DNA of 64,000 nucleotides, taken from positions 1,845,001 to 1,909,000 of the forward strand of contig CP054184.1 in NCBI GenBank assembly GCA_015709715.1, written 5' to 3'. Positions 10,018 through 64,000 of the stretch are shown piece by piece (within the stretch, counting starts at the first letter, position 1; every line of letters begins with the position of its first letter). This stretch comes from Nitrospira sp. GTDB lineage: Bacteria; Nitrospirota; Nitrospiria; Nitrospirales; Nitrospiraceae. The notes under the pieces were generated by a model. The model ran no database searches. It was not told the origin of the DNA and saw nothing but the letters and a program-made list of their open reading frames with translations. The position numbers were made by a program, and so were the translations under genes.

Positions 10018-10101
10018 GATAGGAGGATGGTCCTCATGGCGTCAACGCGACGCCCACCCGCTCTTGACAGGCACCAGCCATGATGACTAGGCTTCGCATC
10101 C

Positions 10102-10560
10102 GTGGAACTACCGGATTTCCAGAACGATCCGCATTTGAAGGTCCTACGCCCGCTGGTGGAAACGTACCTGGCCTTCTGGCGCATGGATAGCCGACATATC
10201 CGTTCGCTGCGCCTCACACCGTCACAATTCGACGTCATCGCGACCCTCGGCGATACCAGCGGGCTGACCTGTGCGGAACTGTCTACTGCCACCCTGGTGA
10301 CGAAAGGCACGCTGACCGGAGTCCTGGACCGCCTGGAGGAGAAGGGGCTCATTCGACGAACGCCGGTCGAATCCGACCGGAGAAGTACCAGAATCTGCCT
10401 GACCGCCAAGGGCGAGGAGCTCTTCAGAAAGATTTTCGCGGCGCACACGGCCTTCCTCCGTCCCTACTTTGAGCGCGCCCTCACCGCGGCAGAAGCGGAT
10501 CAGCTGCGGCTACTGCTGCTTCGCTTGCGACAGAGCTTCCTGGAGGCCCCCAGTTCATGA
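10102..10560 (+). CDS. MarR-family transcriptional regulator
   Basis: The 152-residue winged-helix regulator has the MarR layout: an N-terminal dimerisation helix, then LTPSQFDVIATLGDTSGLTC, the recognition helix region LVTKGTLTGVLDRLEEKGLI, and the wing RTPVESDRRSTRICLT with the conserved DRR. The start is GTG at 10102. Its stop overlaps the start of the metallo-beta-lactamase gene (ATGA), suggesting it controls its own operon. Confidence 0.88.
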   Translation: MELPDFQNDPHLKVLRPLVETYLAFWRMDSRHIRSLRLTPSQFDVIATLGDTSGLTCAELSTATLVTKGTLTGVLDRLEEKGLIRRTPVESDRRSTRICLTAKGEELFRKIFAAHTAFLRPYFERALTAAEADQLRLLLLRLRQSFLEAPSS

Positions 10561-60624: not shown

Positions 60625-61371
60625 CTACTTGCGCAAGAGCATGTGGCCACGCCGATTTTGCTGGTGGCAGGCCTCATCATGTTCATTACAGAAGGGACGG
60701 TCCTTGCCGTAAGAGACGATCGCTACCTGCTGTGGATTCACCCCAAGATCGACCAGGACATTCTTCGCCGCCTTGGCCCGTTTCTCCCCAAGGACGAGGT
60801 TGTAGTCGTGTGTCCCTCGCTCGTCACAGTGGCCGGATATCTTGAGTAGGGCCTTGGGATTATCTTTCAGCCAGTCGGCGTTGTCCGTCAGGGCGCTCAT
60901 CCCCTCCTCGGGAACCAAGTAGCGGTCATACCCGTAGAACACATCCCTCATGCCGGCTTCCATGGCGGCGGCTTCCTCGCGCAGCAGCTCGGCGCGCCAC
61001 TTTTCATGGCGATCGACTGGCATCAACATAGTGCCCATAGGGCTGCGGCTCAACCGCTCTTCTCCTGCCACCTGTCCGTTCACGAGCGGGAAGAACCCTC
61101 GCAGCCGGCCCCCTTCGTTCTCTGCCATCTCCTCCTGGGAACCCGGGAACGGCTGCCGCCCGCTCCGCCCCTCTTTTCCCATAGCCGACGCCCCCGGATA
61201 ATCCTGATAATCCTGCGCCGCCCCGACCGGCGAAGAGTCGGAGCTACGATTCGATGCCAGACGATCTTCCGTTCCCGACTGCAGACCACCCATGCTGCTA
61301 CAGCCGGACGCCGCAACCAACACGACCGCCATTCCGCCCAACATGAGTTGCGATGCACCACGGTACTTCAT
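60625..61371 (-). CDS. pal: Peptidoglycan-associated lipoprotein (OmpA-like, Pal)
   Basis: The 248-residue outer-membrane lipoprotein has a signal ending VAASGC (lipobox near residue 24) and a long Ser/Gly/Asp-rich linker. An OmpA_C domain (about 140-248) follows, with LKISGHCDERGTHDYNLVLG and EKRAKAAKNVLVDLGV. It binds peptidoglycan non-covalently. AAGGAG lies 8 nt before the ATG. Two extra cysteines in CNEHDEAC may form a disulfide. No tol genes are adjacent. Confidence 0.88.
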   Translation of the reverse strand: MKYRGASQLMLGGMAVVLVAASGCSSMGGLQSGTEDRLASNRSSDSSPVGAAQDYQDYPGASAMGKEGRSGRQPFPGSQEEMAENEGGRLRGFFPLVNGQVAGEERLSRSPMGTMLMPVDRHEKWRAELLREEAAAMEAGMRDVFYGYDRYLVPEEGMSALTDNADWLKDNPKALLKISGHCDERGTHDYNLVLGEKRAKAAKNVLVDLGVNPQQVAIVSYGKDRPFCNEHDEACHQQNRRGHMLLRK

Positions 61372-61610: not shown

Positions 61611-61655
61611 TGGTGCGCCCGGAGGGACTTGAACCCCCAACCCTCGGATCCGAAG
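61611..61655 (-). other. tRNA-Arg 3'-end fragment, putative attachment site
   Basis: Read on the minus strand, this holds an anticodon loop (CTTCGGA), 3' anticodon stem TCCGA, variable loop, T-arm GGGGG-TTCAAGT-CCCTC, acceptor 3' strand CGGGCGC, discriminator A and CCA. The acceptor strand and CCA match tRNA-Arg. Pairing of the 5' anticodon stem fails at 61656 and no 5' half follows. It is therefore a fragment: the usual junction left by an integrase that uses tRNA 3' ends. Confidence 0.75.
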
Positions 61656-62004
61656 GCGGACAAAGTACCTTAGAGACAGACAGCGATCAAAGAGGACAGT
61701 TGGATATGTTCTCTTTATAGATCAACGGTTTTAGCATCAATCCATGAAGAACAGTGACGATTGAGACATACCCGCATTCGTGGCTAAAACCGTGACCGAA
61801 CCGTGACCAGAACCGTGACCAGAAGTTTTTCTTAAAATGCACCGCGTGTGACATACGCCCCCCGGAGCATGTGGAGAGTGGAATGGACCGCCATTAAAGA
61901 AGGGATCAGAAGTTATCCAGTTAGATTGAGACTGCAAAGGGGTAAGCAACCAGAGAGGGAAGAGGCGAAAGGGCAAGAATGTTGCTACATATCTCTCGAT
62001 CACT
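61656..62004. other. Island end without a clear gene
   Basis: About 349 bp. It holds the three spaced direct repeats near 61788-61820. A plus-strand frame (61848-62075) and a minus-strand frame (61737-62021) are open, but neither has a ribosome site or recognisable features. I treat this as an integration or regulatory region. Confidence 0.4.
61788..61820 (+). repeat. Three direct repeats AACCGTGACC, helically spaced
   Basis: AACCGTGACC occurs at 61788-61797, 61799-61808 and 61811-61820, so the repeats are 11 and 12 bp apart, close to one helical turn. A weaker relative (AACAGTGACG) lies near 61750. The position beside the attachment site suits integrase or excisionase arm-type binding; that is inference. 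Confidence 0.5.
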
Positions 62005-62943
62005 CTAAGCTGCTGGCCCAACTATCTCAAGAAGTGTATCGATTTGCCTTCGAGGACGATTCAAAGGAGCTATAACCCGACGTCGAACCTTGAAAGTCCA
62101 TTTTTTCCCAACAGCAGTTTCTCCCTGAGACAAAATTGAGGTAAATTGCTCAGCCCCCTCTTTTGAAACCGAGCCATATACTGTTTGGCCATCTTCTAAT
62201 TTGATTTCAAACTTCCTACGGGCCGGAAGGACGCCATCCAAAGTCCCCACCAATAAAATATCCTCCTCTTGTATTTCGGTGGCTTCAGTGCGCCGTCTAC
62301 CTCTGCTGATTGCTGCCGCATCAAGAGTATAGTCTGCAATGTCCTCAACCACGCGTAGCGTGGCACCATTTGAATCTAGAGTAACGAAAAAGTTTTTCAA
62401 GGCGGTCAGGGTCCTTGAATCCAACATATCTGCCGCCTCTTCGAAGTCGAGCTCATTCGGCGATGCTGTTCTTTGTAAAAGTGTAGCGACCTCTTCCACT
62501 TGCACCTTAAGCGCAGTATCTGCAATTTCTATCTGGTCAGATAGTTCTTTCAAAACAAATCCAAATGACCCTCGAGCAACCTCCGTAACCATTAAATGGG
62601 ATGAATTCTTTAAAGGGACAGGCCCCCTTTCGCCTAAAGAGCCCCATTCAGTTTTGGCGAAGGTCTTAGACACCAAGTCCTGAAACTTATCTAGGGCGTC
62701 CCCAGCAAAATCAGCTGATATTCCGCGTGAACCAACTACCGGTGACCCACCAAACAACAATGCAACGCTCGCGCCATTTTCAGGAGCACTGTCAATAGCA
62801 CTAATCTCAGTTTGCAGCGCTAGCTTACGCTTAGCCCATTGGAACTTGCCCACGAAGTCACCTGACTCCGTAGCGGCCTTTAACAACGCACCCACCGCTG
62901 ACAATTCAGCATATAAGCCATCTAGTTTTATCTTACGTACCAT
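62005..62943 (-). CDS. Unknown island protein, partner of NTase-like gene
   Basis: The 312-residue product I cannot assign. The N-terminal half is helical (about 1-60, then 85-180). The middle region has an acidic patch (SPNELDFEEAADMLDSRTLT). The C-terminal 110 residues are beta-rich with EDILLVGTLDGVLPARRKFE and KLEDGQTVYGSVSKEGAEQF, resembling a small beta-barrel. It starts 6 bp after the NTase-like gene ends, so the pair is an operon. No signal or membrane segment is present. Confidence 0.62.
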   Translation of the reverse strand: MVRKIKLDGLYAELSAVGALLKAATESGDFVGKFQWAKRKLALQTEISAIDSAPENGASVALLFGGSPVVGSRGISADFAGDALDKFQDLVSKTFAKTEWGSLGERGPVPLKNSSHLMVTEVARGSFGFVLKELSDQIEIADTALKVQVEEVATLLQRTASPNELDFEEAADMLDSRTLTALKNFFVTLDSNGATLRVVEDIADYTLDAAAISRGRRRTEATEIQEEDILLVGTLDGVLPARRKFEIKLEDGQTVYGSVSKEGAEQFTSILSQGETAVGKKWTFKVRRRVIAPLNRPRRQIDTLLEIVGPAA

Positions 62944-62949
62944 AGGGGC

Positions 62950-63510
62950 TTAGGCGCTCAAGAGTGCAGCGACATCGGAGTCATCATTGGTTAACGGAAT
63001 TTCCAGCATTCCTTTCCACACAGAAGAGACTCTTTGGTGCGAGAACAGCCCGAACCAGTACTTCGTTTGATCAATCAAGTATCCGGGCATCCCGAGGGAC
63101 AAATCAACGAAGTACGCATCACAGTGGAATTTATCTCGGGCTACTTCCGGATCGAATAAATCGGGCCTCGATTCAATCAATCCAACCCACTGGCCCTCAT
63201 CTTTATATTGCTCAGGACGATAGGAAAAAGTGACGATATCGATGTCAGCGGGTGGACGGCATTGTGTTACTTCGACATTTTCAACAAAGCTACCATCCAA
63301 CCACTGAAAACCGTTCAAAAACCCAACCTTTCTCAATTCGTCCCTGTACGCTATGAAGCCTGAAAGAATTTTTATCCGTTCAGGAGTTGTACCAAATCTA
63401 CTTACAACCTCAAGCAATGATACACGGTACGGAGCCATGGCTGCTTGAGCCGCGGGGTTATTCCCGAGAAATGGTGGCAACACCCCTGACTCGTTATGCG
63501 ACGGAATCAC
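62950..63510 (-). CDS. DUF6932-like minimal nucleotidyltransferase-fold protein
   Basis: The 186-residue product shows the NTase pattern: GFQWLDGSFVENVEV (G73-S74), then after 14 residues PADIDIVTF (D89, D91). The N-terminus SGVLPPFLG and the ending YWFGLFSHQRVSSVWKGMLE (here cut short) resemble DUF6932 proteins as I remember them. Its product could add a nucleotide to protein or RNA, as in toxin systems. GTG 63510 is preferred as start; TTG 63519 is possible. It overlaps no other gene and precedes the unknown partner. Confidence 0.62.
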   Translation of the reverse strand: MIPSHNESGVLPPFLGNNPAAQAAMAPYRVSLLEVVSRFGTTPERIKILSGFIAYRDELRKVGFLNGFQWLDGSFVENVEVTQCRPPADIDIVTFSYRPEQYKDEGQWVGLIESRPDLFDPEVARDKFHCDAYFVDLSLGMPGYLIDQTKYWFGLFSHQRVSSVWKGMLEIPLTNDDSDVAALLSA

Positions 63511-63579
63511 CGAGAACAACTTTCGTCAAGAAGCCTCTTGGACTCCAGATTGATATATGCATTTGTATAGCATGCCTTC

Positions 63580-63722: not shown

Positions 63723-64000
63723 TCAGTCGCGGGAGCCCAGTCTAGACGAATCTAACCTGTAAAGGGGACTCTCATACAGGCCAAAACCTCGTCCGAAAAT
63801 AATCGGAAGTTTTTCTCTTGCCTTCGAACACTTCAGTCGCAAATCTTCGATGCTCTTAGCCGACAATGGCCGGAGCAGCTGTAGAGCGTATTTTTTTCGA
63901 CTTGCCTCTAAAAGGAACTGGGGCATCTCGTCAGCCAAAAAAACAACAGACCAGGGCAACCAATCAAGTTTCTGGTCGGGACGTTCTTTCTCAAATTCGC
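63723..64000 (-). CDS. Unknown island gene, 3' part only
   Basis: Open from the right edge; at least 91 codons. The visible C-terminus has a Trp/Val-rich strand (WLPWSVVFLADEM), a helical middle (FLLEASRKKYALQLL) and a Tyr/Arg-rich end. I recognise no domain. Start and full length lie outside the window. Confidence 0.5.
   Translation of the reverse strand, partial: EFEKERPDQKLDWLPWSVVFLADEMPQFLLEASRKKYALQLLRPLSAKSIEDLRLKCSKAREKLPIIFGRGFGLYESPLYRLDSSRLGSRD

Follow-up and report, generated by a model that had tools for sequence, protein, structure and literature searches.

The window, the 64,000-nt stretch of Nitrospira DNA analysed here, very probably contains one end of a mobile element whose integrase gene is split by its own attachment site. 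The tRNA fragment at positions 61611–61655 is the attL of a 7,482-bp (7.5-kb) integrative element in tRNA-Arg(TCG). Beyond what a first, sequence-only reading of this DNA had recognised, the fragment also forms an inner part of the integrase frame, and the severed C-terminal codons of the gene lie directly after it.

Attachment sites and the tRNA-Arg(TCG) target

Positions 61611–61655 form a maximal exact 45-nt repeat of positions 10093–10137 of the 16-kb locus L004, which correspond to G000:C1:1914093–1914137 in the host genome (G000). The repeat holds the 3′ part of tRNA-Arg(TCG), comprising CCA, acceptor strand, T-arm and anticodon loop, and the tRNA sense of the attL copy lies on the minus strand. 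The intact tRNA-Arg(TCG) gene is found on the minus strand at L004 10093–10169, 7,482 bp to the right of the attL copy, and an integrase gene adjoins it. The sequence-only reading had taken the 45 nt for a tRNA-Arg 3′ fragment without its 5′ half, left behind by integrase insertion at a tRNA 3′ end, and had placed an intact tRNA-Arg to the right, where identity of its last 45 nt and an integrase gene were to be looked for. All of this is now found: the fragment reproduces the 3′ part of the intact gene exactly, and the repeat pair together with the neighbouring integrase gene bears out the proposed insertion. A complete tRNA at the fragment, which that reading had named as an observation against it, is absent; ARAGORN detects no tRNA within the window. 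The change in base composition is likewise real and consists of a GC drop to 0.42–0.49 in the element's cargo region, compared to about 0.55–0.62 in the flanks and 0.53–0.61 in the integrase half.

The host chromosome is a single contig of 4,156,062 bp, and in a genome of 4.16 Mb an exact 45-nt match does not arise by chance. We reject a chance tRNA fragment because the exact 45-nt pair delimits complete elements in each of 8 species. The 45-nt repeats of these complete elements are identical, and the elements measure 6,232–9,133 bp.

Occupied and empty sites in the genus

The survey covered 29 genomes of the genus, 3 of them (G003, G016, G028) lacking a good match to tRNA-Arg(TCG). Among the 26 genomes with a usable match, the site is occupied in 16 and apparently empty in 10, where the empty-site call for G027 rests on a 15-nt flank. 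In relatives without the island, a comparison that the sequence-only reading had proposed, pal, tRNA-Arg and aroK are neighbours: Pal and AroK are both located beside the tRNA in 8/10 empty sites, with Pal 299–353 bp away (1,238 bp in G008). The Pal-like OmpA lipoprotein that adjoins tRNA-Arg in these relatives is the chromosomal left neighbour of the element in the window (60625–61371, minus strand). Of the features of Islander-type islands, a displaced 3′ fragment and an intact tDNA, a tyrosine integrase between them and apparently empty sites in relatives are present.

Earlier insertions at this tRNA may be reflected in two further loci. In G013 a second att-like copy (L044 775–819, 82%) is located 1.3 kb to the left of attL, and in G025 (L038 3191–7917) 4.7 kb of GC-typical DNA separates pal from attL.

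The integrase frame across the attachment site

The integrase (PF00589, E 4.4e-27) is encoded between the tDNA and the displaced 3′ fragment. Its residues contain TGLRRGE at 206, KGGKTRH at 234, HSLRH at 299, LGH at 323 and RYAHL at 333, which we take to be tyrosine-recombinase-like motifs. The frame has no stop before the att. In the integrated state it continues across the 45 nt and the remainder of the tRNA gene and terminates 10–12 nt beyond the gene, and the integrated integrase would end in the host-encoded residues VRPEGLEPPTLGSEVRCSIQLSYGRTAV. When the element ends are joined on paper, the frame crosses the 45 nt into 21 codons that lie just inward of attL. In this computed circular form the plus strand of attL (61611–61655) is mid-integrase frame, VRPEGLEPPTLGSE, and the severed 3′ end of the gene follows as the 21 codons GGQSTLETDSDQRGQLDMFSL and a stop (61655–61720, plus strand). 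Only in a circular element do positions 61655–61720 adjoin the rest of the integrase gene.

The frame is open through attR and the computed attP junction in 8/8 complete elements. The tail keeps the same frame and stops at the same codon in 12/12 cases, with TAG in 11 and TAA in 1. These 12 tails were obtained from the 16 occupied sites; G023 was left out for an indel in attL, and G017, G002 and G011 gave no tail (attL not found, or contig end). G014 and G020 are drafts in which the two att sites fall on different contigs. An in-frame GTG at the CCA end of the att could suggest that the tail is a separate small ORF of about 36 residues and not integrase. We regard this as scarcely credible, as the upstream flank in the chromosome consists of host DNA and varies from genome to genome, and in the circle the GTG is in frame with the integrase.

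A pattern for the attP junction that fits 8/8 computed junctions occurs in 0/29 genus genomes and in 0 viral contigs. A minority circle is rarely visible in assemblies, and the absence of the junction therefore neither supports nor refutes activity. A tail pattern fitting 9/12 tails, that of the window not among them, matches no viral contig. The integrase search of viral contigs returned just one relative (36%), and plasmid and phage collections gave 44 and 47 records, every one below 60% identity.

Selection on the tail codons

For the 12 tails, mean pairwise differences at codon positions 1, 2 and 3 are.110,.121 and.252. In the integrase frame the pN/pS of the tail is.27 versus 1.00 and 1.08 in the other two frames (0/300 column shuffles), and it amounts to 0.10 for the last 12 codons (0/1000 shuffles). 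Column shuffles leave the columns whole and therefore keep the relatedness of the sequences. For the 9 elements with an intact integrase, a set that omits G022, G014 and G021 with their deleted or broken integrases, we obtain.102 for the last 12 codons (0/2000) and.270 for all 22 codons (1/2000). Constraint is weak over the first 10 codons of the tail (.49), and codon-phase selection is absent from the 7 codons immediately preceding attR (pS.008, pN.192). The codon pattern shows purifying selection on the tail residues as protein, above all on the last 12 codons. Since the selected frame crosses the att, integration would sever a selected C-terminus.

A frame that runs through an att could also be accidental, being tRNA antisense, and the tail of an otherwise ordinary tRNA-targeting element would then have no role as protein. 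Such frames do exist: Arg-TCT integrases read through the att with a pN/pS of.80 in their 7 tails, and those of Cys elements with.67 over 14 codons in 4 tails, in both cases without the selection signature. The nearest outgroup G275, in tRNA-Arg(ACG), has a frame through the att and a tail without the motif described below. A tRNA/att is annotated in 2/3 related phage records; their integrases terminate 18 and 14 nt short of it, which again favours an accident. We nevertheless consider this explanation unlikely, given the codon-phase selection, the stop fixed in 12/12 tails and the disappearance of the signal where the tail is cut off. The latter is seen in a natural control of four tRNA-Gln(TTG) elements, whose integrases are about 70–72% identical and which contain the homologous stretch ungapped at equal distance from the att. 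The Gln-TTG integrases stop at or just before the att edge and cut this stretch off. Differences in its last 12 codons are.306,.347 and.458 at the three positions, pN/pS is.71, and internal stops are present in 3/4. By these comparisons, the selection signature on the tail is confined to Arg-TCG elements.

The same control bears on the explanation that conservation of the stretch to the right of attL acts on the DNA, as it would for an integrase, Xis or IHF site, and not on the protein. Neither Arg-TCG nor Gln-TTG elements have gaps in the spacing from att to arm, and they largely share GAGACnGACAGCGAT. Tail codons 7–11 are also conserved in the Gln elements, which therefore points to some DNA-level constraint. 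DNA-level constraint alone, however, does not explain the tail, because the homologous DNA of the Gln-TTG elements lost its codon phase. The differences in the last 12 codons of the 12 tails fall at the third position (.254 vs.042 and.028 at the first and second), and swaps within the tail are synonymous (TTA/TTG/CTA, TTC/TTT, TCT/TCC, TAG/TAA). Conservation as DNA in place of protein is thus very unlikely, and the two levels of constraint probably coexist in the tail stretch.

Arm-type repeats

Three copies of ACCGTGACC at 61789, 61800 and 61812 (61789–61820, plus strand) are putative arm-type integrase sites. The plus strand of L004 contains 5 copies, 3 of them to the right of attL. The other two are located in the 3′ coding end of the integrase (GTVTKTVT), at G000:C1:1914026 and 1914038. 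Repeats of the ACCGGGAG type take their place on both sides in 5 Arg-TCT and 3/4 Cys elements tested, and the fourth Cys element (G030) has GTGACC-type repeats. Repeats flank the att in 24/25 elements, where the shared 9-mer count was matched by 0/200 interior control windows; G277 is the sole miss, with 62/200 control windows. Judged by their position, the repeats either side of the att have the expected layout of arm-type integrase sites and are putatively assigned as such.

The C-terminus of the tail

The tail ends in G-Q-[MLI]-D-[MI]-F-S-L-stop in 12/12 tails. According to PMC11139829, the consensus for β-clamp binding is QL(S/D)LF, often C-terminal, tolerant at position 2 and commonly with acidic flanks, and the clamp motif of E. 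coli DnaE is QADMF. The tail motif Q[MLI]D[MI]F matches the clamp consensus in 12/12 tails. In DnaE of G000, QTSIF stands 239 residues before the end and is one of two loose matches among the last 400 residues. This is roughly the location of the internal motif in the E. coli protein. Within the last 8 residues, Q..[LMI]F occurs in 0/871 distinct ORF C-termini (ORFs of at least 150 codons in the DNA fetched for the analysis), and the looser Q..[LMI][FL] in 4/871. It is plausible from this motif that the integrase tail binds the β-sliding clamp. Our literature search found neither an evident clamp-binding tyrosine integrase nor evident work on these Nitrospira elements, which is no proof of absence.

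The swap of tails could be real with MDMFSL serving as a degron, or as a contact with integrase, Xis or another protein, and not as a clamp motif. C-terminal tails often act as degrons, the tRNA-encoded tail itself has the partial motif QLSY, and the clamp reading draws on a single short motif. Evidence in favour of the clamp comes from the residues themselves: Q, D and F are invariant in 12/12 tails, M/L/I swaps are limited to motif positions 2 and 4, and the motif is C-terminal and preceded by acidic residues. We give a role other than clamp binding an even chance.

Gene content of the elements

From attL to attR the element encodes, on the minus strand, a protein of 312 aa followed by the DUF6932 and SIR2_2 proteins, and then an 82-aa protein, Rep237, an excisionase-like HTH protein, a 221-aa protein and the integrase. 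Three cargo genes reach into the window, all on the minus strand. The 312-aa protein (62005–62943) has no Pfam family and matches phrog_18731. The DUF6932 protein (62950–63519) and the SIR2_2 protein (589 aa) match the PADLOC candidate defence families PDC-M63A (5e-12) and PDC-S65 (7.2e-54), respectively. The window holds the 3′ part of the SIR2_2 gene (63723–64000), which runs past its edge to G000:C1:1910492. The 312-aa and DUF6932 pair (62005–63519) also occurs in the G001 element (L039) without SIR2, and therefore appears to be an independent unit of two genes. The excisionase-like protein matches TIGR01764 (E 7.4e-9), and the 221-aa core protein has a sub-threshold match to a CGNR-type zinc finger. 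A prophage was rejected, as none of the 8 element proteins has a structural PHROG match; relaxase or conjugation genes are likewise not found among them by Pfam.

A five-gene core consisting of integrase, excisionase-like protein and three others is present in 8/8 complete elements, and the cargo varies. A YafQ/RelB toxin-antitoxin pair adjoins attL in 4/8 (families checked for the G001 pair), and the G010 element has restriction-like nuclease domains in its cargo; the family searches of cargo outside G000 took in 10 of 63 ORFs of at least 70 residues. The G021 element (L106 522–1457) is a 935-bp remnant with both att sites, the integrase tail, the YafQ/RelB pair and an integrase stub, so decayed that hardly more than its addiction module survives. 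In G022 (L099) and G014 (L103) att sites and tail persist, and of the integrase, whose body is deleted or replaced, only a 3′ stub is left. These two loci are possible non-autonomous elements.

Rep237 (237 aa; L004 7205–7918, minus strand) is the most conserved core protein and has no Pfam family. Its fold model is weak (pLDDT 60.8), with the best PDB match at E 0.053 and the HUH transposase ISDra2 at E 0.11. The strand order in this weak model is ferredoxin-like, and the motifs GHGVLHIFW and RYVISQYV seem to us reminiscent of HUH replication proteins. An assignment of Rep237 as HUH initiator from this model is unproven.

Integrase family and modularity

In a tree of 41 integrase rows the main groups track the tRNA target. 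The Arg-TCG clade contains 11 rows (support 99/100), and the other target-tracking groups are nine Arg-TCT rows, the Cys elements and four Gln-TTG rows. Exceptions are Arg-ACG targets, found in three places, and one Arg-TCT row that stands elsewhere. At 18/30 further loci the same core, with Rep237 94.9–99.1% identical, is located beside integrases only about 51–71% like that of G000. The elements therefore look modular, with exchangeable integrase/att units. G000 itself has four Rep237 copies at 99–100%. Its sibling elements at G000:C1 520917–530470 and 1537501–1546835, in tRNA-Arg(TCT) and tRNA-Cys(GCA), have nearly identical Rep237 and quite different integrases, and a 99% and an 86% copy of Rep237 are located further at 3915767 and 1429284.

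Proposed switch

We propose that the circular form would make the full-length integrase (IntP), which would be competent for integration. Recombination at the tRNA would remove the tail, and the chromosomal form (IntR) would carry a tail encoded by the tRNA; excision would restore the removed tail. By analogy with phage Mx8, the integrase may be described as a self-switching enzyme. A weaker step of the proposal is that the last residues of the tail, as clamp-binding motif, would couple integration with replication of the entering circle. The integrase would then have a sliding-clamp-binding tail only while circular, be replication-tethered at entry, and be untethered by its own integration swapping in the tail read from the host tRNA. 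This part we put forward tentatively, as possible rather than probable.

Such a split integrase would be a simple way for a mobile element in nitrifying bacteria to tell the integrated from the circular state. It is easy to take integrase tails read from a tRNA (VRPEGLEPPT...) for annotation noise. In the present case the other half of the gene lies at the opposite end of the element and is under selection, and annotation of the integrated state would therefore give the wrong protein end. This suggests that a search for similar split 3′ ends at other attL sites is worthwhile.

Comparison with known systems

The best comparison is phage Mx8, for which a review (PMC6070905) describes an attP within the integrase coding sequence and a new int 3′ end created by integration. 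The Islander authors (PMC4383910) state that the Mx8 and SSV integrases extend across attP. As in Mx8, the attP here lies inside the int coding frame, as indicated by the computed junctions (8/8) and by codon selection. In contrast to Mx8, it belongs to a small Nitrospira element without phage structural genes. This element targets tRNA-Arg(TCG), and the tRNA gene therefore supplies the tail of the integrated integrase. The tail encoded by the element is also short (21 residues) and has a clamp-like end, unlike that of Mx8.

The arrangement with an intact tDNA at one end, a 3′ fragment at the other and an integrase between them is shared with Islander-type islands (PMC4383910), from which the Nitrospira element differs in that the integrase gene itself is split by integration. 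The short C-terminal motif follows the same QLxLF pattern as the C-terminal clamp motifs of IS transposases, as reported in PMC4549789. Unlike these transposases, the Nitrospira protein is a tyrosine integrase, and its putative clamp motif is joined to it only in the circular form. Against this background, what is new here is a non-phage, tRNA-encoded version of an att-crossing integrase, with selection evidence and a clamp-like end.
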